Source of the DNA: Natronosalvus vescus
GTDB taxonomy: Archaea; Halobacteriota; Halobacteria; Halobacteriales; Natrialbaceae
Direction: 5' to 3'
DNA length: 64,000 nucleotides
NCBI RefSeq assembly: GCF_023973145.1
Contig: NZ_CP099546.1
Location: 2,852,001-2,916,000 of the forward strand
The notes under the pieces are model-generated. The model saw nothing but the letters and a program-made list of their open reading frames with translations. It was not told where the DNA came from and did no database searches. The translations under genes were made by a program, and so were the position numbers. How positions within the stretch are numbered: position 1 is the stretch's first letter; each line of letters begins with the position of its first letter. This document shows, one piece after another, positions 4,801 through 29,660 of this stretch.

Positions 4801-5880
4801 TCACCCGTCTTCGTCCGGCTCGACGCCGACGTCGACCCAGAGATGGACAGTGTAGTCTGCGTTCTCGCTGGTTGGATCTGCTGGGACGTCGTCGACGTAC
4901 AGGAGCCATACGATCCGCGTGTCGTTCTCATCGATCGTCGGTGCAATGTCGTGGGTGTGAAGCCACGTTTCGTTGTGCGCTACCTGCGTGTGAAACCGCT
5001 GTAGCTCGCGCTGTTCGTGCACGATCGAGTCGTTGTCGACGGTTTCGACGTCCTGTTCGACGACGACGACGGTGTAGTTGACAGTTCGTTGTTCGTTGTT
5101 GCCGATGCCGAGGACGATCTCGGCGCTTTCACCCTGGGCGAACTCCGTGGGGTAGCCGGATGCCACGAGGTCGCCGTCGTCGTCCTCTGTCAGGATATAC
5201 AACTCGGAGAACTGTTCCCCCTGGGGCGGGACGGCGATGGCGAAGACGATGCTTCCGACGGCGAGCACGATCGAAGCCACCAGCAGGAGGTTCAGAAGTG
5301 CGTCAGCACGGGAATCCGCTTCGAACAGCTCTGCCCGTCCACGATGCCACCACTGCCGGTACGGAACGCGAAATCGCTCCTCAACCGGCAGTTCCCACCG
5401 ACGGTAGGCCGCAATTGCGGTTACCGGAAGCGTAAACCCGCTTACGGCGATCATGATCGGGGTGAGTCGGATCCCCAAGGGTGTGAAGTTCAGCCCGAGT
5501 CCGATCAACGGGACGATGGCAATGCTCAATCCAAACGACACGGCGACGCGTTCGATGCCGTCGATCCCGGGTCGAGGCACGTCGACCCAGCCGGCCACCA
5601 TCTGGTCGCTCGAGTCGGACGAATCTGCGTCCCTTTCGTGAGCAGTACCTGTAACGGGTTCGTCGCCCTGTTCCGGAAAGAGCGCAGCGATAAACGCGTA
5701 TCCGGGGACGAAGAGGATGAACACAAGGCCGACGGGTACCCTGAGCGGGGTCTCCCGAATCAACGGTGCGAAGACGGCAACGTTCGTAAGTACGACCATT
5801 CCAACAACCGCTGATAGATCTGCAGGGAGATGCCGTACGTGCCGGGGCAAGAGCAGCCACAGCGATCGGGCTGCGTTCAT
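4801..5880 (-). CDS. DUF1616 family membrane protein
   Basis: A 359-residue integral membrane protein. Seen: about four hydrophobic segments in the first 175 residues (VVGMVVLTNVAVFAPLI, VGLVFILFVPGYAFIAALF with the typical FVPGY, IAIVPLIGLGLNF, a TLPVTAIAAY helix), another near residue 205, then a C-terminal extracytoplasmic beta-rich domain (NYTVVVVEQD and so on). This architecture is that of haloarchaeal DUF1616 proteins, which from general knowledge are often found near S-layer and glycosylation genes. The biochemical function is unknown. A small zinc-ribbon gene sits 88 bp upstream on the same strand and may be co-transcribed. Confidence 0.8.
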   Translation of the reverse strand: MNAARSLWLLLPRHVRHLPADLSAVVGMVVLTNVAVFAPLIRETPLRVPVGLVFILFVPGYAFIAALFPEQGDEPVTGTAHERDADSSDSSDQMVAGWVDVPRPGIDGIERVAVSFGLSIAIVPLIGLGLNFTPLGIRLTPIMIAVSGFTLPVTAIAAYRRWELPVEERFRVPYRQWWHRGRAELFEADSRADALLNLLLVASIVLAVGSIVFAIAVPPQGEQFSELYILTEDDDGDLVASGYPTEFAQGESAEIVLGIGNNEQRTVNYTVVVVEQDVETVDNDSIVHEQRELQRFHTQVAHNETWLHTHDIAPTIDENDTRIVWLLYVDDVPADPTSENADYTVHLWVDVGVEPDEDG

Positions 5881-6124: not shown

Positions 6125-6349
6125 GGGCAACACAATCTACACCGGAATATCCCTTGATCGTAATTCCAAAATGAATAGGATCGATTTGGGAGAACGAGGC
6201 GTACCGTCCGCCGAAACCTCCCCTATCCCGCGACTTTCGATTTCTTCCGGGAGGGGTGTCAGTAGATATATGCTCGAGGCCTCGCAACGGGTCATCAGGA
6301 TGCTGGGGCGTGGCGTCGACCGGGTCGCAACTACTCGTGGTGATCGGCC

Positions 6350-9300
6350 GTGAGTGTCGGTGACCGACTGACCGCGGCCATCGTAACTCACAGCCGCCAC
6401 GTGCTCGTTCTCTGTCTCCTCACGACACTGATACTGGGTGCTGGCCTCCCCGCACTCGAGACCGACACCAGCCTCGAGCAGTTCCAGACGGAGACACCCG
6501 AGAGCGACGCCCTCGCCTACGCCGATCGACACTTCGACGAACGCGACGAGAACACGACGACGACGCAGGTCATCTTCCGGGAGGAAAACGCCCTCGAGCG
6601 GGACTCGCTGCTCGAGGGGCTCCGATTCCAGCAACAGCTCAGACACGACGACACCATCGGCCCGACGCTCGTCGACGATCACCCCACCGTCGGCGTCGAG
6701 AACGTTGTCGCGACGGCGATCATCCGTCTCGAGGAGGCCGACGAACTGCAGGAACGCGCGGATACACTCGAGCAGGAGGCTGCCGAACTCGAGGCCCGAA
6801 TCGACACACTCGAAGCACATCTCGAGCACGTCGCCTCGATCCAGGTCGAGTACGAGGCGTTGAACGCCTCCTACGAAGCGGGTGAGGTGAGCGAGGACGA
6901 GTACGAACGGCGGGCCGCCGAACTCGAGACCGACCTCGAGGAGACGGTGGCGAACGCAACCGCTGACCTCGACGACGAGCGGGCGAGCGAGTTCGAGCGA
7001 GCCGCAGCAAGCGTTCGGGCGATTGAGGCCGAAATCGCCGCCCTCGAACGCGAGTACGAAGCTGGCGACGTCGACGACTCGACGTACACCAGCCGACTCG
7101 AGCGTCTCGAATCCGACCGTGATGGGGCGATCGTCGACGGCTCGCGGTGGTTGTTCGTCGACGAGATCGAGGCGATGGCTCAGGCGACCGACGACCTCAA
7201 GGCCGAACGAGAGGCCCTCGAGCGTCTCGACCTGCCGCCGCTCGACGCCCAGATCGAAGCGCTCGAGGAGGCCGACGACGACGCGTTCGATCGGGCGATC
7301 ACAACCGTCCTTGCCGACGGCGGCCCCGGGAGCGAGCGTGCATTGCGGCTCCTACCGACCGGTGCGGAACCCGCGTCGCTCGAGTCGAGCGATCGAATGG
7401 TACTCGTCAGCCACTCGCTGGATCGAGGCTCGGGCCCATCCGGGGAACTGGGAGCGGACGTGATCGACGCCCAGCATGCCATCGACGCCCACATCGCTGA
7501 CCGCGGTGACGACCACCTGGTGTTCGGGTTCGGACTGGTCGCCGCGGAGGTGGATCGTGCGGCCGTCGATACCGTGATCCTCGTTGGACCGCTCGCGCTC
7601 GTGTTGGTCATCGGGGCGCTCGCAATGGCTTACCGGGACGTCCTCGATATTGTCCTCGGCGTTGCTGGGATGCTGGCCGTCCTCGTCTGGACGTTCGGTA
7701 TCATGGGCTGGACTGGAATTGCGTTCACTCAGGTATTCGTGGCCGTCCCCGTCCTGCTGGTCGGCCTCTCCATCGACTACGCGATCCACGTCTTCATGCG
7801 CTATCGGGAGGCTCGAGTTGGGGATGGCCAGAAGGCCCAAGTTGGGGACGATCTGGCGACTCGAGTTGGGGACGACAGCGATACCGGGGTCGGCGACTCG
7901 ATGACGGTCGCCCTGGCCGGCATCGCCACCGCGTTCGTCTGGGTGACGGCGACGGCGTCGATCGGCTTTCTCGCCACCCTCGTCAGCCCGATCGATCCGA
8001 TCAGGGAGTTCGGACTGGTCAGCGCACTCGGTATCGTGGCCTCGCTTTGCGTGTTTGGAGCGATGATCCCGGCGGCGAAGGTCGAACTCGACGATGCCCT
8101 CGAGGCACGTGGCATCGACCGCCGAATCCGGGCGATCGGTGGTGCCAGCCGCGTTGGCCGCATTCTGGCTAGCGGTGGGGTAGCTGCCCGCCGTGCCCCT
8201 GTTGTGGTACTCCTCTGTGCGTTGCTCGTCACCGCCGGCGGTGCCTACGGGGCAACCCACGTCGATACCACGTTCGACGAGGAGTCGTTTTTGACTGAGG
8301 AGCCGCCGTCCTGGACGACCCACCTCGGCCCGTTCGCTCCCGGCGAGTATCGGATGCAATCGACGCTGACCTATCTCGACGACAACTTTCAGCGTCAGGA
8401 CGGCCATGCCCAGATACTCCTCAGGGGCGACGTCACCGACGGCACGACCCTCCAGCGCGTCAGTCGAGCCGAAGAACGGGCACGCTCGAGCGAGGTCGTC
8501 TACGTCCTTCCCGACGGATCGGCCGACGTTCGGTCGCCGCTGACGGCAATGGAGGCCGCAGCCGCCGAGAGCGAGTCGTTCGATGCGACCTATCGGCTGG
8601 CCGACCGGACGGACGACGATGTCCCCGACCAGAACGTCCTCGGGCTCTACGACGCGGTTTTTGACGTCAACCCGGGTGGTGCCAGCGAAGTTATCTACCG
8701 AAGCGAGACCGGGGAGTACGAGGCGATCCGGCTCGTCGTCGGGATCGATACCGGCACCTCGAGCGCGGAGACGGCAGCGGAGATGCGCGAGATTGCGGCG
8801 ATTCTCGAGGGTGCAAGCGAAGGCGGAACAGCGACAGGTGAGTCGAGTCTCACAGATCTCGACGACCAGCGATGGGAGGCGACGGCGACTGGCGAACCGC
8901 TCGTGACCTACGCCCTCGAGCGAACCCTGTTTGCGAGCGTCGTTAACGGATTGCTTGTCGCACTGATCGCCGTCATGGGCGTCCTCACGGTCGCCTACCG
9001 GCTCACTGGGCGCGGTGCGATGCTCGGGGTCGTCACGGTGATTCCCGTCGTCATCGCCCTGGGTGCCACGCTGGGGACGATGGCGATGGTCGGAATCCCG
9101 TTCAACGTATTGACCGGGATGGTCACCAGCCTGACGATCGGCCTCGGGATCGCATACGCCGTTCACGTCACCGCACGCTACACCCAGGAACTCGAGGCCG
9201 GTCGCTCGGTTTGGCAGGCCCTCGACCGAACGCTGTCGATGACCGGCGGTGCCCTGACCGGGAGCGCGGTGACGACCATCTGTGGCTTCGGCGTCCTGGT

Positions 9301-9526
9301 CGTCTCGATCGTCCCGCTGCTCCGACAATTCGGCCTCGTCACCGCGATGACGATCGGTTACGCGTTTCTCGCGAGCGTGGTGGTGTTACCGACACTGCTC
9401 GCGCTGTGGACGCGATTCGTCGCCCCCGCACCGTACCGTCACGACGATTTTGCGTTCGATCGATCGTCCTGGCGAGGTCGACTCGCTCGAGTCGGTGATC
9501 GCGATACCGACGGTGACAGCGACTGA
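6350..9526 (+). CDS. RND superfamily (MMPL-type) transporter, copy 1
   Basis: A 1058-residue export permease of the RND/MMPL/SSD type with the expected 2 x 6 helix plan. There is one TM near residues 16-36, a large extracellular region, five TMs (about 400-590, including GLSIDYAIHVFMRYRE), a second leading TM near 615-640, a second extracellular domain, and five closing TMs (870-1030, including GLGIAYAVHVTARY). The first extracellular loop carries a long Glu-rich coiled coil (about 125-300) with two helix-turn-helix units resembling SHOCT motifs (AGEVSEDEYERRAAELE, AGDVDDSTYTSRLERLE). A cytoplasmic loop near residues 488-516 has a repeated RVGDD-type motif missing from the paralogue. GTG start. 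The substrate is unknown (lipid or hydrophobic export is usual in the family). The paralogue follows 250 bp downstream. Confidence 0.88.
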   Translation: MSVGDRLTAAIVTHSRHVLVLCLLTTLILGAGLPALETDTSLEQFQTETPESDALAYADRHFDERDENTTTTQVIFREENALERDSLLEGLRFQQQLRHDDTIGPTLVDDHPTVGVENVVATAIIRLEEADELQERADTLEQEAAELEARIDTLEAHLEHVASIQVEYEALNASYEAGEVSEDEYERRAAELETDLEETVANATADLDDERASEFERAAASVRAIEAEIAALEREYEAGDVDDSTYTSRLERLESDRDGAIVDGSRWLFVDEIEAMAQATDDLKAEREALERLDLPPLDAQIEALEEADDDAFDRAITTVLADGGPGSERALRLLPTGAEPASLESSDRMVLVSHSLDRGSGPSGELGADVIDAQHAIDAHIADRGDDHLVFGFGLVAAEVDRAAVDTVILVGPLALVLVIGALAMAYRDVLDIVLGVAGMLAVLVWTFGIMGWTGIAFTQVFVAVPVLLVGLSIDYAIHVFMRYREARVGDGQKAQVGDDLATRVGDDSDTGVGDSMTVALAGIATAFVWVTATASIGFLATLVSPIDPIREFGLVSALGIVASLCVFGAMIPAAKVELDDALEARGIDRRIRAIGGASRVGRILASGGVAARRAPVVVLLCALLVTAGGAYGATHVDTTFDEESFLTEEPPSWTTHLGPFAPGEYRMQSTLTYLDDNFQRQDGHAQILLRGDVTDGTTLQRVSRAEERARSSEVVYVLPDGSADVRSPLTAMEAAAAESESFDATYRLADRTDDDVPDQNVLGLYDAVFDVNPGGASEVIYRSETGEYEAIRLVVGIDTGTSSAETAAEMREIAAILEGASEGGTATGESSLTDLDDQRWEATATGEPLVTYALERTLFASVVNGLLVALIAVMGVLTVAYRLTGRGAMLGVVTVIPVVIALGATLGTMAMVGIPFNVLTGMVTSLTIGLGIAYAVHVTARYTQELEAGRSVWQALDRTLSMTGGALTGSAVTTICGFGVLVVSIVPLLRQFGLVTAMTIGYAFLASVVVLPTLLALWTRFVAPAPYRHDDFAFDRSSWRGRLARVGDRDTDGDSD

Positions 9527-9776
9527 TCTCGGTGGTCGACCAGTTTTTATCGATCCGGGCCGGCAGCAGTTGTGTTCCCAATGGGCGTCTGGGTTGGCGA
9601 CAGTCCAGTTCCCGGCAGGTTCCATCGATGAAGTACACAGGTGGGATGGCAGTACCGTCGTACGGATTGAATGTTAGTATTCGAATAACAACGACTATTT
9701 ACGCATCCGTTTAGTACGATCATCACAACAGAATGCTGTCCCCGATATTCTTCGAAACGTCCGGAGGGGCGATCGA

Positions 9777-12700
9777 ATGAGCGCCCCCGATCGAATCGCC
9801 GAGGCGATCACCACCTACAGCAAGACCATCCTCGTAGTCATGCTGGTGGTGACGCTCGTGATCGGTTCCGGTGCCACGATGGTCGACGACGACTCCTCCC
9901 TCGATCAGTTCGAAAGCGACTCTCCAGAACTCGAGGCCGCCGAGTACATCGGCGAGAACTTCACCGTCGAGGAAACCGAGAACACGACGACCGTTCAGGT
10001 GATCGTTCGCGGGGAGAACGTCCTCTCACAGGAGTCGCTGATCGACTCCCTCGAGTTCCAACAGGCGATTCGTGCCAACGAGTCGATCAACGCCACTCTC
10101 GCCGAAAACAACGCGATGACGGGCGTCGAGAACATCGTCGCCATCACGGCGATACGCGGCGACCAGGCCGACGAACTCGCCGAACGCGGGGCCGAACTCG
10201 AGGAACGAAGCGAGTCGCTCAACGAGACGAGCCAGCAACTCAGCGAGGCGCTCGAAACCGTCGTCGGGATCGAACGGGAGTACGCTGCCCTCAACACCTC
10301 CCACCAGGAGGGTGAGATCGACGAAGAGACGTACGAACAGGAGGCCGGCGAACTCGAGGATCGCCTCGATGAGACGATTGCTGACGCGACCGCCGACCTC
10401 GACGCCGAACAGACGGCGACGTTCGAGGCTACTGTCGCTGATCTTCGGACGGTCGTCAATAACGAGTACCACCTCGAGCGCCAGTACGAAGCCGGCGAGA
10501 TCAGCGACGACGAGTACGAGTCTCAGTCCGCCGAACTCGCCGAACAACGTGAGGGGCTGTTCGAACAGGGGACGTCAGGCGTCCTTGCCGACGAGTGGGA
10601 ACAGCTCGAAGCAGACAGCGAGGAACTCGAGGCCGATCAACGAGCGCTCCAGACCGCCGACGATCCGACCCTCGAGGAACAGATCGAGGCCATCGAGAAC
10701 CTCGACGACGAGGCGTACGAGGAACTCATCGCCGACGTCCTCTCTGACGATGGCGAGGATTCGGCTGCCCTGGCGCTCATGTCGACGGGCTACGAACCCG
10801 GCTCGACCGAAGCCGAAGCCCGGATGCTGTTTCTCACGCAACTGACCGACGGAACCGGTATGCCGGAGATGGGCGAAACCGACGACCCCGCCTTCGACGC
10901 CCAGCTCGTGTTACAGGATCTGGCGAACGCACACGTCGACAGCAACGACTACATCGTCTTCGGCTTCGGCATCATCGGCGACGAGATCGACCGATCGATG
11001 GGCGACAGCCTGGCAATCGTCGGGCCGCTGGCGCTGTTGTTCGTCGTCCTCGCACTCGCCATCGCCTACCGGGACGTCCTCGACATCGCCCTCGGCGTCC
11101 TCGGCATTCTCCTCGTGCTCGTCTGGACGTTCGGCTTCATGGGCTGGGCCGATATCGCGTTCAATCAGATGTTCGTCGCGGTGCCCGTCCTCCTGATCGG
11201 CCTCTCGATCGACTACGCGATCCACGTGTTCATGCGCCATCGCGAGCAACGCGAAGCCGCTGGCATCACCAGCGACGTTCGTGGTTCGATGGCGATTGCG
11301 CTTGCCGGCGTCGGCGTCGCACTGGTGTGGGTAACTGCGACGACCGTCATCGGCTTCCTCTCGAACCTCATCAGTCCGATCGCTCCGATCCGCGAGTTCG
11401 GCGTCGTGAGTTCGTTCGGCATCCTCGCGGCCCTCCTGATCTTCGGCGCGCTCGTCCCCGCGGCGAAAGTCGAACTCGATTCGCTCCTCGAGCGGGTCGG
11501 CCTCGACCGGCGAAAGCGCGCCTTTGGCACCGGCGGTGGTCGGTTCAGCAGCGTGCTGACGATCGGTGCGACGGCCGCGCGGAAAGCACCGCTCGTGATC
11601 CTCGTCGTCGCTCTCGTGTTCACCGCGGGCGGCGTCTACGGAGCCAGCCAGGTTGACACTTCCTTCAGCGAGGAGGATTTCCTTGCCGACAGCCCACCGG
11701 AGTGGGCACAACACCTGGGCCCGCTCGCTCCCGGTGAGTACCAGGCGAAATCGAACCTCGACTACGTCAACGAACACTTCCAGCGCCAGGACGTACGTGC
11801 CCAGATCCTCGTTCAGGGTGATATCACCGATCCGGAGACACTCGAGCGACTCGACCGCGCCGAACGCGAAGCCGCCGAGAGCGAGGACGTCGTTTACGTT
11901 CTGCCAAACGGCGAGGCCGACGTCGAGGGGCCAATTTCGAAGATGCGTGATGTGGCGGCGGTGAACGAGTCGTTCAACGAGACGTTCACCGCTGCTGGCG
12001 GTGGGCCGGACTCCGTTCCGACCCAGGATCTGGAGACCGTCTACGACGAGTTGCTCGCCACCGATCCGACGGCGGGCGAGTACGTCTACCGCACTGACGA
12101 CGGCGAGTACGAGGCCGTTCGGCTGGTGGTCGCCGTTCAGGGAACCGCCGAGTTCGGCGATATCACCGACGAGATGCGGGCGATTGCCGCCGGCATCGAC
12201 GACGACGGTACCGATCCACGCTGGACGGCCACGGCGACTGGCGATCCGGTCGTCAACTACGTCGTCGAGGGCGACCTGATGGCCACGGTGCTCGAGAGCC
12301 TCATGATCACACTCGTTGCCGTCGTCAGCTTCCTCTCGGTCGCCTACTGGGCCACCGGAAAAGGGGCGATGCTGGGTATCGTCACCCTCGTGCCGGTTGC
12401 TCTCGCCGTGAGCTGGATTCTCGGGACGATGTACCTCCTCGGGATGCCGTTCAACGTCCTCACGGGGATGATCACCAGCCTCACCATCGGCCTGGGCATC
12501 GCCTACAGCATCCACGTGAGTTCACGCTACACGCTCGAACTCGAGCGACAGGGTAGCGTCTGGGACGCGATGGAGACGACGGTCACTGGCACCGGCGGCG
12601 CGTTGCTCGGCAGTGCAGCGACGACCGTCGGCGGCTTCGGCGTTCTCAGTTTTGCCATCCTGCCGGTGTTGCGTCAGTTCGGGATTATCACCGGGTTGAC

Positions 12701-12887
12701 GATCATCTACGCGTTCCTCGCGAGCGTGATCGTCCTGCCGACGCTACTCGTCCTCTGGACGCGCTATTTCGGCCCCGACGTCTCGTTCGCACCGACGACT
12801 GCGTCACCCCGAGGGACGCCTGCGAGTGACGGTGGCCTCGAGTCCGACGACTCGAGCGAGGAATACACGGGAGGTTACGACCGATGA
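9777..12887 (+). CDS. RND superfamily (MMPL-type) transporter, copy 2
   Basis: A 1036-residue paralogue of the preceding gene with the same plan: signal-anchor helix, a loop with a Glu-rich coiled coil, RND permease block with GLSIDYAIHVFMRHRE, second loop, and second block with GLGIAYSIHVSSRY. The loop again has two SHOCT-like hairpins (EGEIDEETYEQEAGELE, AGEISDDEYESQSAELA). The ATGA at its 3' end overlaps the start of the TrmB-type regulator gene, so the regulator is probably co-translated and may control this exporter. An AT-rich TATTTACG element lies upstream of the start. Tandem paralogues may form a heteromeric exporter, since RND permeases are oligomers; that is inference. Confidence 0.88.
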   Translation: MSAPDRIAEAITTYSKTILVVMLVVTLVIGSGATMVDDDSSLDQFESDSPELEAAEYIGENFTVEETENTTTVQVIVRGENVLSQESLIDSLEFQQAIRANESINATLAENNAMTGVENIVAITAIRGDQADELAERGAELEERSESLNETSQQLSEALETVVGIEREYAALNTSHQEGEIDEETYEQEAGELEDRLDETIADATADLDAEQTATFEATVADLRTVVNNEYHLERQYEAGEISDDEYESQSAELAEQREGLFEQGTSGVLADEWEQLEADSEELEADQRALQTADDPTLEEQIEAIENLDDEAYEELIADVLSDDGEDSAALALMSTGYEPGSTEAEARMLFLTQLTDGTGMPEMGETDDPAFDAQLVLQDLANAHVDSNDYIVFGFGIIGDEIDRSMGDSLAIVGPLALLFVVLALAIAYRDVLDIALGVLGILLVLVWTFGFMGWADIAFNQMFVAVPVLLIGLSIDYAIHVFMRHREQREAAGITSDVRGSMAIALAGVGVALVWVTATTVIGFLSNLISPIAPIREFGVVSSFGILAALLIFGALVPAAKVELDSLLERVGLDRRKRAFGTGGGRFSSVLTIGATAARKAPLVILVVALVFTAGGVYGASQVDTSFSEEDFLADSPPEWAQHLGPLAPGEYQAKSNLDYVNEHFQRQDVRAQILVQGDITDPETLERLDRAEREAAESEDVVYVLPNGEADVEGPISKMRDVAAVNESFNETFTAAGGGPDSVPTQDLETVYDELLATDPTAGEYVYRTDDGEYEAVRLVVAVQGTAEFGDITDEMRAIAAGIDDDGTDPRWTATATGDPVVNYVVEGDLMATVLESLMITLVAVVSFLSVAYWATGKGAMLGIVTLVPVALAVSWILGTMYLLGMPFNVLTGMITSLTIGLGIAYSIHVSSRYTLELERQGSVWDAMETTVTGTGGALLGSAATTVGGFGVLSFAILPVLRQFGIITGLTIIYAFLASVIVLPTLLVLWTRYFGPDVSFAPTTASPRGTPASDGGLESDDSSEEYTGGYDR

Positions 12888-13669
12888 CGACAACGACCCC
12901 GACCGAGACCGACGCCATCGAGGCGTTCGAACGCCTGGGACTCACGAGTTACGAAGCGCGGGTGTTCATCGCCCTCCAGCAACTGGGTTCGGGCACCGCC
13001 CGTGACGTGGCGAGCATCACGGACGTTCCCCGCTCGCAGGTGTACAGCGTCGCCGAGAGCCTCGAGGATCGGGGCCTGCTGGAAGTTCAGCAGTCGAGCC
13101 CGATTCGGTACCGACCGGTGAGCATCGACGAGGCGCGTTCGACGCTTCGATCTCGCTTCGAGAACGAACAGGAGCGAGCGTTCGACTACGTGGAGCAGGT
13201 ACGGAGCGAACCCGGTGGCGAGGAAGAACAGGAGGACATCTGGACCGTTCGCGGACGCGCACGCATCGACGACCGGACGCTCGATCTGTGCTCGCGGGCC
13301 GAGGAACGCGTCGTCTTCGGAACCAGGCTGGAACCCCTCGTCACCGACGAACTCGAGGCCGTGCTCGAGAAACAGGCCGCGGCGGGACTGGAGGTCGCCG
13401 CTGTGAGTCGGACGCCAGCGGTTCGCAATCGGCTGGATCGTCTCGACGGAGTGACGGTGTTTTCGCCACCTTCACACCACCAGAGTGACGACCGATCGGG
13501 ACGGATCGTGATCGTCGACGACGATACGATTCTGTTGAGCGTCGTCGACGATGACGGCAGCGAGACGGCGTTCTGGAGCGCTGGCTCGCGCTTTGCCTCG
13601 GTGTTGATTCAGTTGATCGAAGCCGCCGATGGCGGTCACGCGCCGGTTGCACCCGATTCGACCGACTGA
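12884..13669 (+). CDS. TrmB-family winged-helix transcriptional regulator
   Basis: A 261-residue regulator. Residues about 15-75 form an archaeal TrmB-type winged helix (LGLTSYEARVFIALQQLGSG, then DVPRSQVYSVAESLEDRGLLEV), followed by a coiled-coil linker and a C-terminal ligand-binding-like domain with IVDDDTILLSVVDDDG. TrmB proteins respond to small molecules, often sugars, but this C-terminus is too generic to name a ligand. The start overlaps the RND copy 2 stop by four bases (ATGA), which ties it to the exporters. It is convergent with pelota. Confidence 0.88.
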   Translation: MTTTTPTETDAIEAFERLGLTSYEARVFIALQQLGSGTARDVASITDVPRSQVYSVAESLEDRGLLEVQQSSPIRYRPVSIDEARSTLRSRFENEQERAFDYVEQVRSEPGGEEEQEDIWTVRGRARIDDRTLDLCSRAEERVVFGTRLEPLVTDELEAVLEKQAAAGLEVAAVSRTPAVRNRLDRLDGVTVFSPPSHHQSDDRSGRIVIVDDDTILLSVVDDDGSETAFWSAGSRFASVLIQLIEAADGGHAPVAPDSTD

Positions 13670-27650: not shown

Positions 27651-27742
27651 TCGTCGAGTGACCGCAGCGTTCACTCGTGTGTGTTTTGAGAGTCGTCGAC
27701 GAGGCCGTATTCTTCTTGTACACGGTTCCCTTCTCCTTCCGT

Positions 27743-28186
27743 ATGAGCGGCCCGATTGAACGACTCCAGGAAAATATTACGTCTGCCACCGCGTTACTCG
27801 TCATCGGGTTGAGTATCGTCGCCTATGGGCTGAGCATCCCGTATGCATGGGTATTCTTCGTCGTTGGACTCTTCGTCATCGTTCCACTCGTTGGATTGCT
27901 GTTCGGTGCGGACGACTGGCGCAAGTGGGATCCGCTCAGCGACGAATTTTGGGACGACATCTTCGAGGACGAGCCAGCGGAGGCAACCGAATCGCCACCC
28001 CCTGACGACGAAGCGACGACTGAAGACGCACTGGAGACGTTGCGCGACCGATACGCGCGTGGTGAGCTTACGGACGAGCAATTCGAGCGAAAACTCGAGT
28101 TGCTCGTCGAAACCGAGTCGCTGGAGAACGTCGAAGATTGGTACACGAACCGGGAGCGGGGCGACCGGTTGACCGAGCGCGAGTAG
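27743..28186 (+). CDS. Two-TM membrane protein with C-terminal SHOCT domain
   Basis: A 147-residue protein starting MSGPIERLQEN. Two hydrophobic helices (about 16-33 and 36-55), an acidic linker with DEFWDDIFEDEP, then a SHOCT domain, ETLRDRYARGELTDEQFERKLELL, near residues 100-123. SHOCT domains are short oligomerisation or binding modules of unclear role. ATG 27743 begins just ahead of the first helix. It lies between the antiporter and a TnpB transposon. Confidence 0.85.
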   Translation: MSGPIERLQENITSATALLVIGLSIVAYGLSIPYAWVFFVVGLFVIVPLVGLLFGADDWRKWDPLSDEFWDDIFEDEPAEATESPPPDDEATTEDALETLRDRYARGELTDEQFERKLELLVETESLENVEDWYTNRERGDRLTERE

Positions 28187-28242: not shown

Positions 28243-29660
28243 AGGCGGTTCAAGGCGAGTGCCTCGGGGCTTGACCCCGAGGGTGAAGCCGACAACGCCT
28301 AACCTATCAACGCTAATCCATACCTTTACAACACCCAAGTACGTCGATTAGGGTATGGAAAAGTCGCTTACGAAGACACTCGTCTTCCAACTCCAATCCG
28401 ATGACAAGCGACTTCTCTCCGACGCGTATAATGAAGCTCGGTGGGTGTACAACCAGACCATCCAATTAGCGAAAAACGGGATGGACTGGGACGACATCTC
28501 ACCACGTCTTGAAGACGAGGCAGACCTCGTGAAGAACACCACGCAACGCATTGTCGCTAAAGCACTTGATGCACTTCAGCAGTCCTACAACCGCGACGAC
28601 TACAACACACCCAGTCACGAGAAAACTGGGCCATACCCGTTGCGAATGAACTTCACCGAGGGGTACAATCTCACACGCAAAGACAACGGGATACACTACC
28701 GAATCAGTGCCAAGCCGTACAATCCGGTGAAAGGTACACTTCGTGGCGCACCAGACAACCTCGAACTCCTCGAACAAGCCCTCGAACGTGACGAGTGGCG
28801 TGTCGGAACCGCCGAAGCGATGGCACGCAACGGAAATCACGAACTACACGTCAACGTTACTCATCTCGAAGCCACGGTTCAAGACAAACACGACGCTCAG
28901 ACCATTGTAGGCGTAGACATCAACGAAGATTGCGTGGCTCTTTCAGCCCTTCGTGATGACGACATCGTTGATTCCGTGGTTATCGACTACCCGGAAATCA
29001 AGAAAGAGCGCCATCGGTACTTCACGATGCGTAAGCGAATGCAGAACGTTGGGCAGACAGCGTTCGACCGTATATTCGAGAACAAAGAGGAACGATACGT
29101 TCACGACCAACTCCACCAAGTCTCCCGGCGAATTGTGGTGTGGGTTCAGCAATTCGTGTCGCCGCTCGTTGTGTTTGAAGACCTCAAGCATATGCGAGAT
29201 TCGATTGATTACGGTACTCGGATGAATCGTCGGTTGCACTCCCTGCCGTTTCACAAACTCCGCTCGTTCGTCACGTACAAAGCGGCGTTCGAGGGGATTC
29301 CGAACGATGACATCGACCCGGCGTACACCAGCCAGACGTGTTCTTTCTCAAAGTGTGAGCATACGACTCGGTCGAATCGCCGGAAGAAGCGGTTCAAGTG
29401 CAACGCGTGTGGTCGGCAAGACCACGCTGACCGAAACGCGGCAGTGAATATTGCGAAGAAAGGATTGGAGAAGTTGAATCGAAATGTGCCTGCTCTCAAC
29501 ACGCTTCCGGTTGTTCGGAAACTGCGACGGCAGGCATCGGGCTGTGTGAACCAGCCGACCGTGACCCACGCAACCGTTCGAGGCCACCAAGCCGATGGTC
29601 GCGTGGGAGTGTCCGATTAAACCACGGGAAGCCTCGGGGCTTGACCCCGAGGCGGTTCAC
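28243..29660 (+). mobile_element. IS200/IS605-type (IS1341-like) transposon, TnpB only, copy 1
   Basis: A 1418-bp element defined by comparison with the copy at 39025-40443. The left end starts AGGCGG directly after TCTAC (28238-28242); the right end finishes TTCAC at 29660. Both ends carry the same hairpin, CCTCGGGG-CTTGA-CCCCGAGG (28262-28282 and 29632-29652). No target duplication and no tnpA, so it depends on a transposase from elsewhere or is stranded. The right end lies in the stop codon of the HTH-10 regulator gene. Confidence 0.85.
28355..29620 (+). CDS. tnpB: RNA-guided endonuclease TnpB (transposon copy 1)
   Basis: A 421-residue TnpB, the ancestor-type relative of Cas12. Characterised family members cut DNA using an RNA from the transposon's right end. 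The RuvC residues are intact: Asp188 in IVGVDIN, Glu275 in VVFEDL, Asp359 in HADRNAAVNI. The zinc ribbon is complete (Cys329, Cys334, Cys349, Cys352). An N-terminal helical region with NEARWVYNQT matches the OrfB N-terminal domain. Near-identical to the protein at 39138. The last 60 residues are basic and poorly conserved, as expected where the gene overlaps the RNA. Nothing suggests inactivation. Confidence 0.93.
   Translation: MEKSLTKTLVFQLQSDDKRLLSDAYNEARWVYNQTIQLAKNGMDWDDISPRLEDEADLVKNTTQRIVAKALDALQQSYNRDDYNTPSHEKTGPYPLRMNFTEGYNLTRKDNGIHYRISAKPYNPVKGTLRGAPDNLELLEQALERDEWRVGTAEAMARNGNHELHVNVTHLEATVQDKHDAQTIVGVDINEDCVALSALRDDDIVDSVVIDYPEIKKERHRYFTMRKRMQNVGQTAFDRIFENKEERYVHDQLHQVSRRIVVWVQQFVSPLVVFEDLKHMRDSIDYGTRMNRRLHSLPFHKLRSFVTYKAAFEGIPNDDIDPAYTSQTCSFSKCEHTTRSNRRKKRFKCNACGRQDHADRNAAVNIAKKGLEKLNRNVPALNTLPVVRKLRRQASGCVNQPTVTHATVRGHQADGRVGVSD

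Follow-up and report, generated by a model that had tools for sequence, protein, structure and literature searches.

In mycobacterial MmpL4, MmpL5 and MmpL10, one outer loop of the RND/MMPL core harbors a long insert of antiparallel helices, which the available portions of the corresponding reports place in the second periplasmic domain (aa 493-682 in MmpL5, 480-734 in MmpL10), and where the coiled coil is required for function in MmpL5 (PMC12501195) and drives oligomerization in MmpL10 (PMC12183618). In haloarchaea, the accessible text on Haloferax volcanii HVO_A0467/HVO_A0466 describes a 12-transmembrane-helix RND permease, mentions coiled-coil regions, names a secreted Ig-like protein as partner and contains no occurrence of TrmB (PMC11349517). 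Regulators of the TrmB family, in turn, are described in the available part of PMC4158304 as N-terminal winged-helix proteins with an inverted repeat at the TATA box and start point. Here, we analyzed a 64,000-nucleotide stretch of Natronosalvus vescus DNA (the window), part of a 3.84 Mb genome on one contig, which holds two tandem RND/MMPL exporter genes, E1 and E2, with a TrmB-family regulator gene behind E2. E1 and E2 resemble the MmpL proteins in core and insert but differ in that the insert lies on the first instead of the second outer loop and bears SHOCT-like turns; the Haloferax protein is likewise described as a haloarchaeal RND permease, whereas its partner is a different one. We favor, with moderate confidence, the joint reading that the two are haloarchaeal RND/MMPL exporters with a loop-1 stalk and that E2 and TrmB form a self-repressing unit involving a dedicated operator and re-initiation from a mini open reading frame (mini-ORF).

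E1 (6350-9526, plus strand, 1058 aa, GTG start) and E2 (9777-12887, plus strand, 1036 aa) are tandem neighbors with 49% identity over 1066 columns. The regulator gene (12884-13669, plus strand, 261 aa) overlaps E2 by 4 nt; the ATGA at 12884-12887, already pointed out in a preliminary description of this DNA, is seen directly in the sequence, whereas the exporters were there called "fused" to the TrmB unit and TrmB is in fact a separate gene. Both exporters score above the Pfam MMPL (PF03176) gathering cut-off of 20.5 bits (72.9 and 94.4 bits) and remain below the NCBIfam cut-off of 351.9 bits for the HAE3 subfamily TIGR00921 (203.2 and 247.7 bits). The AlphaFold models of both proteins have the two-half architecture of RND transporters, including two outer porter loops, and comparisons with Foldseek and VIA matched NPC1L1/NCR1, Patched, MmpL4/5 and HpnN, the likeness to MmpL4 and MmpL5 thus extending to the fold; the VIA alignment with NCR1 covered 731 residues (Z 40.6, root-mean-square deviation 4.0), VIA having been run on the chains ranked by Foldseek. 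An Asp-Tyr pair in transmembrane helices (TM) 4 and 10 is known from MmpL3, although it does not define the whole superfamily. In our set of 86 exporters (from which one locus, L123, was left out as it has no complete exporter ORF), D479 is present in 86/86, but the TM10 position (aa 935 in E1, 909 in E2) is Ala in 86/86. Because TM4 keeps its Asp while TM10 has Ala, and a third, shorter RND gene elsewhere in the genome has Asp in both, proton or ion coupling in the E1/E2 family may be one-sided. Exporter ORF lengths in the set range from 896 to 1665 aa, with some ORF starts placed too far upstream.

The family is near-universal, with a match to E2 in 193/194 genomes of the class, and a TrmB gene (by ORF) lies 3' of the exporter in 62 of 80 named loci. 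A second exporter in tandem was found in 5/80 named loci plus the window, and E1 has orthologues in three loci, one named Natronosalvus (L070) and two from Natrialbaceae archaea (L090, L093). Given this distribution, E1 and E2 seem to have arisen by local tandem duplication within a unit that is otherwise widespread as one exporter plus TrmB.

Upstream of the E2-type exporters, we found an inverted repeat, GTTNNTA-N6-TANNAAC, that is conserved at no fewer than 9 of its 10 specified bases in 67/86 upstream regions, compared to 1.4 regions on average and never more than 4 across 50 shuffles, and whose gap is 6 in 85/86 sites. In front of E2, one candidate operator, GTTAGTATTCGAATAACAAC (9673-9692), has 10/10 specified bases and constitutes the only exact match in the genome, while a second (9710-9729, 8/10 specified bases) follows 37 bp after it at the expected transcription start; a TATA-like box, TATTTA, can be read between the two copies (9696-9701, plus strand). 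A second copy at a distance of 34-40 bp is found in 13 of the 67 regions, in nine of these at 37 bp. As the proximal copy lies ~10 bp behind the TATA-like stretch, it would, by analogy with the arrangements described in PMC4158304, occupy a repressor position. The 261-aa protein carries an N-terminal TrmB winged helix (PF01978, 72.3 bits versus a cut-off of 25.6) and does not reach the NCBIfam cut-offs for TrmB equivalogs; it shares winged helix and operator position with the regulators of PMC4158304, as far as these are covered there, but differs from them in its candidate operator sequence and in its place behind an RND exporter. Operator and regulator go together: where a TrmB gene lies next to the exporter, the repeat is present in 65/69 cases, and where none does, in 2/17 (Fisher p 2e-11). 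E1 has neither an operator nor a TrmB of its own. A regulator unit serving twin exporters, as had been proposed, is therefore not borne out, and we dropped an E1+E2+TrmB operon because operator and TrmB track E2 only.

A second conserved element is a mini-ORF directly in front of the exporter start. In E2, it comprises 15 codons (MLSPIFFETSGGAIE, 9733-9780, plus strand), and its TGA overlaps the exporter ATG by 4 nt; in E1, which has a mini-ORF even though it lacks the operator, it comprises 17 codons (6300-6353, plus strand; 27- and 60-codon readings exist in the same frame), with a TGA that overlaps the GTG start by 4 nt. With exporter start codons set by alignment, 79/86 exporters are preceded by an ORF of 8-60 codons that ends in an overlap with their start codon (4 nt in 75, 1 nt in 4 more), versus 35/422 other genes in the same loci. 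Among genes with at least 120 nt free upstream, the background was 19/279, or 27/279 when starts anywhere within the first 20 codons were admitted; a mini-ORF of this kind is missing in front of the genome's third RND paralogue. The mini-ORF is mostly 15 codons long, and its ATG lies one to nine bases behind the operator. Where an ATG is present just behind the operator, its frame relative to the exporter is kept in 50/52 cases, 46 of them with a 4-nt overlap, although the ATG-to-exporter distance takes 14 different values between 15 and 167 nt and has changed no fewer than 17 times on the tree. ATGA/GTGA stop-start overlaps of the kind seen here, and again between E2 and TrmB, are those of termination-reinitiation pairs, which, in the available text of PMC6728339, coupled translation in H. 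volcanii and E. coli, with coupling seen in 13/14 tested pairs; the difference is that the upstream partner here is a mini-ORF of ~15 codons. Delivery of ribosomes by short upstream ORFs is a general idea in what is accessible of PMC12548453, which also treats such pairs, and 16 upstream ORFs of 15-31 aa were reported in 97 long H. volcanii leaders (PMC4983044). Titles and abstracts of the open-access literature, in searches made without the operator letters, yielded no description of the operator or the mini-ORF.

The exporters themselves are distinguished by a helical stalk between TM1 and TM2, that is, in outer loop 1. In the AlphaFold models, for which alignments of 54 and 40 sequences served as input, the stalk of E1 (6695-7225, plus strand, aa 116-292) consists of helices 116-176, 182-204, 209-237, 243-263 and 266-292, and that of E2 (10125-10655, plus strand, aa 117-293) of helices 117-177, 183-205, 210-238, 244-268 and 271-293. 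The preliminary description had noted two motifs of the form (A/E)G(E/D)(I/V)(S/D)(D/E)xxY in each first outer loop, and there are exactly two (aa 177 and 238 in E1, 178 and 239 in E2); shuffling each 206-aa coil segment 20,000 times never produced two copies and produced one copy at a frequency of at most 0.0001. Structure prediction places the E2 motifs at the turns 178-182 and 239-243, i.e., between helices, and helical hairpins are predicted in both exporters, with a predicted local distance difference test (pLDDT) score, taken in blocks over residues 121-300, of 88-95 in E2 and 79-95 in E1. Judging by the helix lengths, we picture a stalk that rises in one long helix, continues through an inserted hairpin and returns in a descending pair of helices; the two turns would then sit at one end, most likely the outer tip of a four-helix head.

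The resulting SHOCT-like hairpins, recognized by motif, duplication and profile comparison, lie on the plus strand at 6836-6937 and, 61 aa further on, 7019-7120 in E1, and at 10266-10367 and 10449-10550 in E2. Across the set, the strict motif occurs twice in only 3/86 exporters and once in 6/86, and we used a wider pattern, a regular expression, for all remaining counts, which gave two hairpins in 23/86 exporters and one in 14/86. The spacing is 61 aa in 23/23 two-hairpin exporters, and the two units are 33% identical over 55 residues in register compared to 10% when shifted, and thus constitute an internal duplication of 61 aa. Hairpin number has changed at least 17 times on the tree, and analysis of independent pairs showed no link of hairpins to TrmB, an idea we abandoned. 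The loop-1 insert as a whole is strongly variable (e.g., in L107, L133 and L104), and in some exporters long coils take the place of the hairpins.

SHOCT modules (PF09851), as presented in the available part of PMC3581485, consist of two helices around a Gly turn that is free of indels and has conserved acidic and aromatic positions; they lie near the C-terminus in 89.2% of cases, and MMPL, RND and gas vesicle are all absent from the main text of that study. The exporter turns share this architecture, with two helices around an indel-free turn with a conserved pattern in the AlphaFold models and hhalign alignments. The profile comparison gave hhalign probabilities of 94-95 at the turns versus below 16 in coil windows away from them, with 14 for a reversed profile and a maximum of 25 in 50 column shuffles, and a profile-profile probability of 95 when the exporter hairpins were matched to SHOCT modules from the same genome. 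At the same time, the exporters remained below the Pfam gathering score of 27 bits (11.6 and 15.8 bits); a genome-wide Pfam SHOCT search returned nine places above cut-off, with the exporters ranked 11th and 12th of 13 (19.5 and 17.4 bits). Hence, the SHOCT resemblance proposed earlier holds in being specific to the turns, while the hairpins differ from canonical SHOCT in being sub-threshold, extracellular, duplicated and internal (at about aa 163-260 of about 1050) rather than C-terminal. A reciprocal search of the genome with the hairpin profile recovered its own four copies and then eight places at E ≤10, among them four SHOCT-search hits and one GvpG. The GvpG profile (PF05120, within positions 24-67) in turn matches all four exporter hairpins as well as the genome's SHOCT genes, and it matched 26/26 hairpins. 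E2 even exceeds the Pfam GvpG gathering score of 30.6 bits (33.0 bits over two stretches; E1, 23.7 bits), but GvpG is a small gas-vesicle protein whereas the exporters comprise 1036-1058 aa; the genome has its own GvpG candidate at 1047720, above cut-off with 54.7 bits. E1 and E2 are thus neither SHOCT proteins by name nor, despite the E2 score, GvpG. As the GvpG profile matches exporter hairpins and SHOCT genes alike, a single small helical hairpin is common to SHOCT, GvpG and the exporter turns, through either descent or convergence.

Some observations adjoin this comparison. The GvpG-like gene stands among apparent gas-vesicle genes (L156, genome 1045500-1049500), a GvpG match at E ≤1 was seen in 19 of 40 relatives, and the passing score of E2 is a likely origin of erroneous gas-vesicle annotations among haloarchaeal RND proteins. 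Elsewhere in the same genome (L154:340-864), a 174-aa zinc-ribbon-like protein contains a turn resembling those of the exporter hairpins (E 0.10). Among solved structures, the hairpin profile found 2 weak hits, the best being chain 9lm9_A (bvFP-Pfr16.v14; E 0.013), and this comparison was dropped.

Other explanations must be weighed for each of these elements. The inverted repeat could be bound by a different regulator or function as an initiator element, with TrmB acting elsewhere: it is unlike the TrmB motifs listed in the available part of PMC4158304 (TACT-N3-AGTA, TATCAC-N5-GTGATA and TACT-N7-8-GAGTA), and the known haloarchaeal-type motif TACT-N7-AGTA, which we tried and dropped, occurs in 0/86 upstream regions. 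Since the repeat is nearly absent where TrmB is absent, including upstream of E1 in the same genome, we nonetheless regard this as unlikely. For the mini-ORFs, one may object that they are an unselected by-product of a GC-rich genome with frequent ATGAGC starts, as a start codon followed by A yields a free TGA in frame +2 and as the encoded peptides vary; yet, among genes with an A after the start codon, a mini-ORF with 4-nt overlap precedes 75/77 exporters versus 30/148 others, which, together with the frame kept at such diverse distances, renders this explanation very improbable.

Two further alternatives concern the stalk. The preliminary description had proposed that the loop hairpins pair the two permeases, such that E1 and E2 bind each other and form a heteromeric twin exporter. 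The two hairpins are indeed common to both proteins and equally spaced, tandem exporters have been retained in the few loci mentioned above, and 10/12 exporters in tandem loci have at least one hit to the regular expression (2/12 have none). However, 16 of the 23 two-hairpin exporters have no second exporter in their locus, although the rest of those genomes may hold one; in the Natrialbaceae tandem loci L090 and L093, the E2 partner lacks the motif while E1 keeps one or two; and, in the accessible text of PMC3581485, a single SHOCT module did not oligomerize its reporter protein, the fusion staying monomeric. We thus consider E1-E2 pairing quite improbable. Because of these lone two-hairpin exporters, the turnover of hairpins, the monomeric SHOCT fusion and the MmpL analogue, the stalk would most likely serve in homo-oligomer assembly or as an outlet through the space under the S-layer. 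A more serious alternative is that the hairpins are simply good helix caps that recur in long antiparallel bundles, with no kinship to SHOCT, GvpG or DUF1707 and no specific role. This would fit with the missed SHOCT cut-off, with the loss of the motif in many relatives and with the fact that SHOCT, GvpG, DUF1707 and VbhA models all match, as expected for a common local structure. Against it, the profile similarity is confined to the turns and vanishes in other helices and in reversed and column-shuffled profiles, and the reciprocal search returned mainly SHOCT and GvpG genes after the exporters. On balance, we find the helix-cap explanation possible but doubtful. Overall, of what the preliminary description had claimed, the motifs, the 4-base overlap, the hairpins and the SHOCT resemblance stand, the two outcomes it had named as refuting (loops lacking helical hairpins, or profile scores at the level of generic coiled coil) having both failed to appear, while pairing and the twin regulator unit are not supported.

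Several results weigh against our favored reading of stalked exporters and a self-repressing E2-TrmB unit. The exact operator pattern is weak by itself: its single match in the N. vescus genome equals that of the backward control (also 1), and 47/61 genomes of the family have a match compared to 28/61 for the backward control (counted from the table). Furthermore, the motif was discovered in the same set in which it was counted, and its co-occurrence with TrmB rests on ~5 changes of each state on the tree, for which independent pairs gave 2.4 in the same direction versus 0.1 in the other, numbers too small to be significant. The peptides encoded by the mini-ORFs are not conserved in sequence, and a conserved mini-ORF peptide, which we had considered, was dropped after comparison showed none. 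Lastly, the hairpins are dispensable, as 49/86 exporters have none, and of the 14 single hits, 3 (in L098, L108 and L113) fall outside the coil, around aa 305, by chance and were kept in the counts.

Within the window, a DUF1616 membrane protein (389 bits) is encoded upstream of E1 on the minus strand (4801-5880). A SHOCT module that had been placed at 27743 is real and belongs to the gene at 27677-28186, but position 27743 is an alternative start, and the hairpin itself lies at 28025-28105. This SHOCT gene is followed at 28355-29620 by a 421-aa transposon-type protein, TnpB/OrfB-like by eye.

Overall, the following picture may be drawn for this locus. E1 and E2 are members of a haloarchaea-wide RND/MMPL family whose outer loop 1 is extended by a predicted helical stalk. 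On account of the operator position and the co-occurrence, TrmB most likely binds GTTNNTA-N6-TANNAAC, the candidate operator flanking TATA box and start point, and would repress the E2-TrmB unit until its ligand is bound. The transcript would start almost directly at the mini-ORF of ~15 codons, which ribosomes may translate before stopping on the exporter start codon and re-initiating there, and the same 4-nt overlap could allow a second re-initiation at TrmB; E1 would be a diverged tandem copy with its own mini-ORF and no operator. More tentatively, we suggest that a dedicated, exporter-linked TrmB controls a whole haloarchaeal family of exporters by way of a separate class of operator, and that the near-leaderless mini-ORF, kept only for its frame, is a landing pad for leaderless initiation that hands ribosomes on twice, from mini-ORF to exporter and from exporter to regulator, so that the exporter:regulator ratio would be fixed.

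One operator, one regulator and one mini-ORF would together provide a compact and testable model of exporter control in haloarchaea. A mini-ORF that is conserved for its frame and not for its peptide would lend itself naturally to studies of the cooperation of leaderless initiation with termination-reinitiation in archaea. For the RND superfamily, the predicted stalk indicates that a helical extension can be borne by outer loop 1 in place of outer loop 2, and its extracellular SHOCT-like turn bears on the question of what SHOCT-like hairpins are for.

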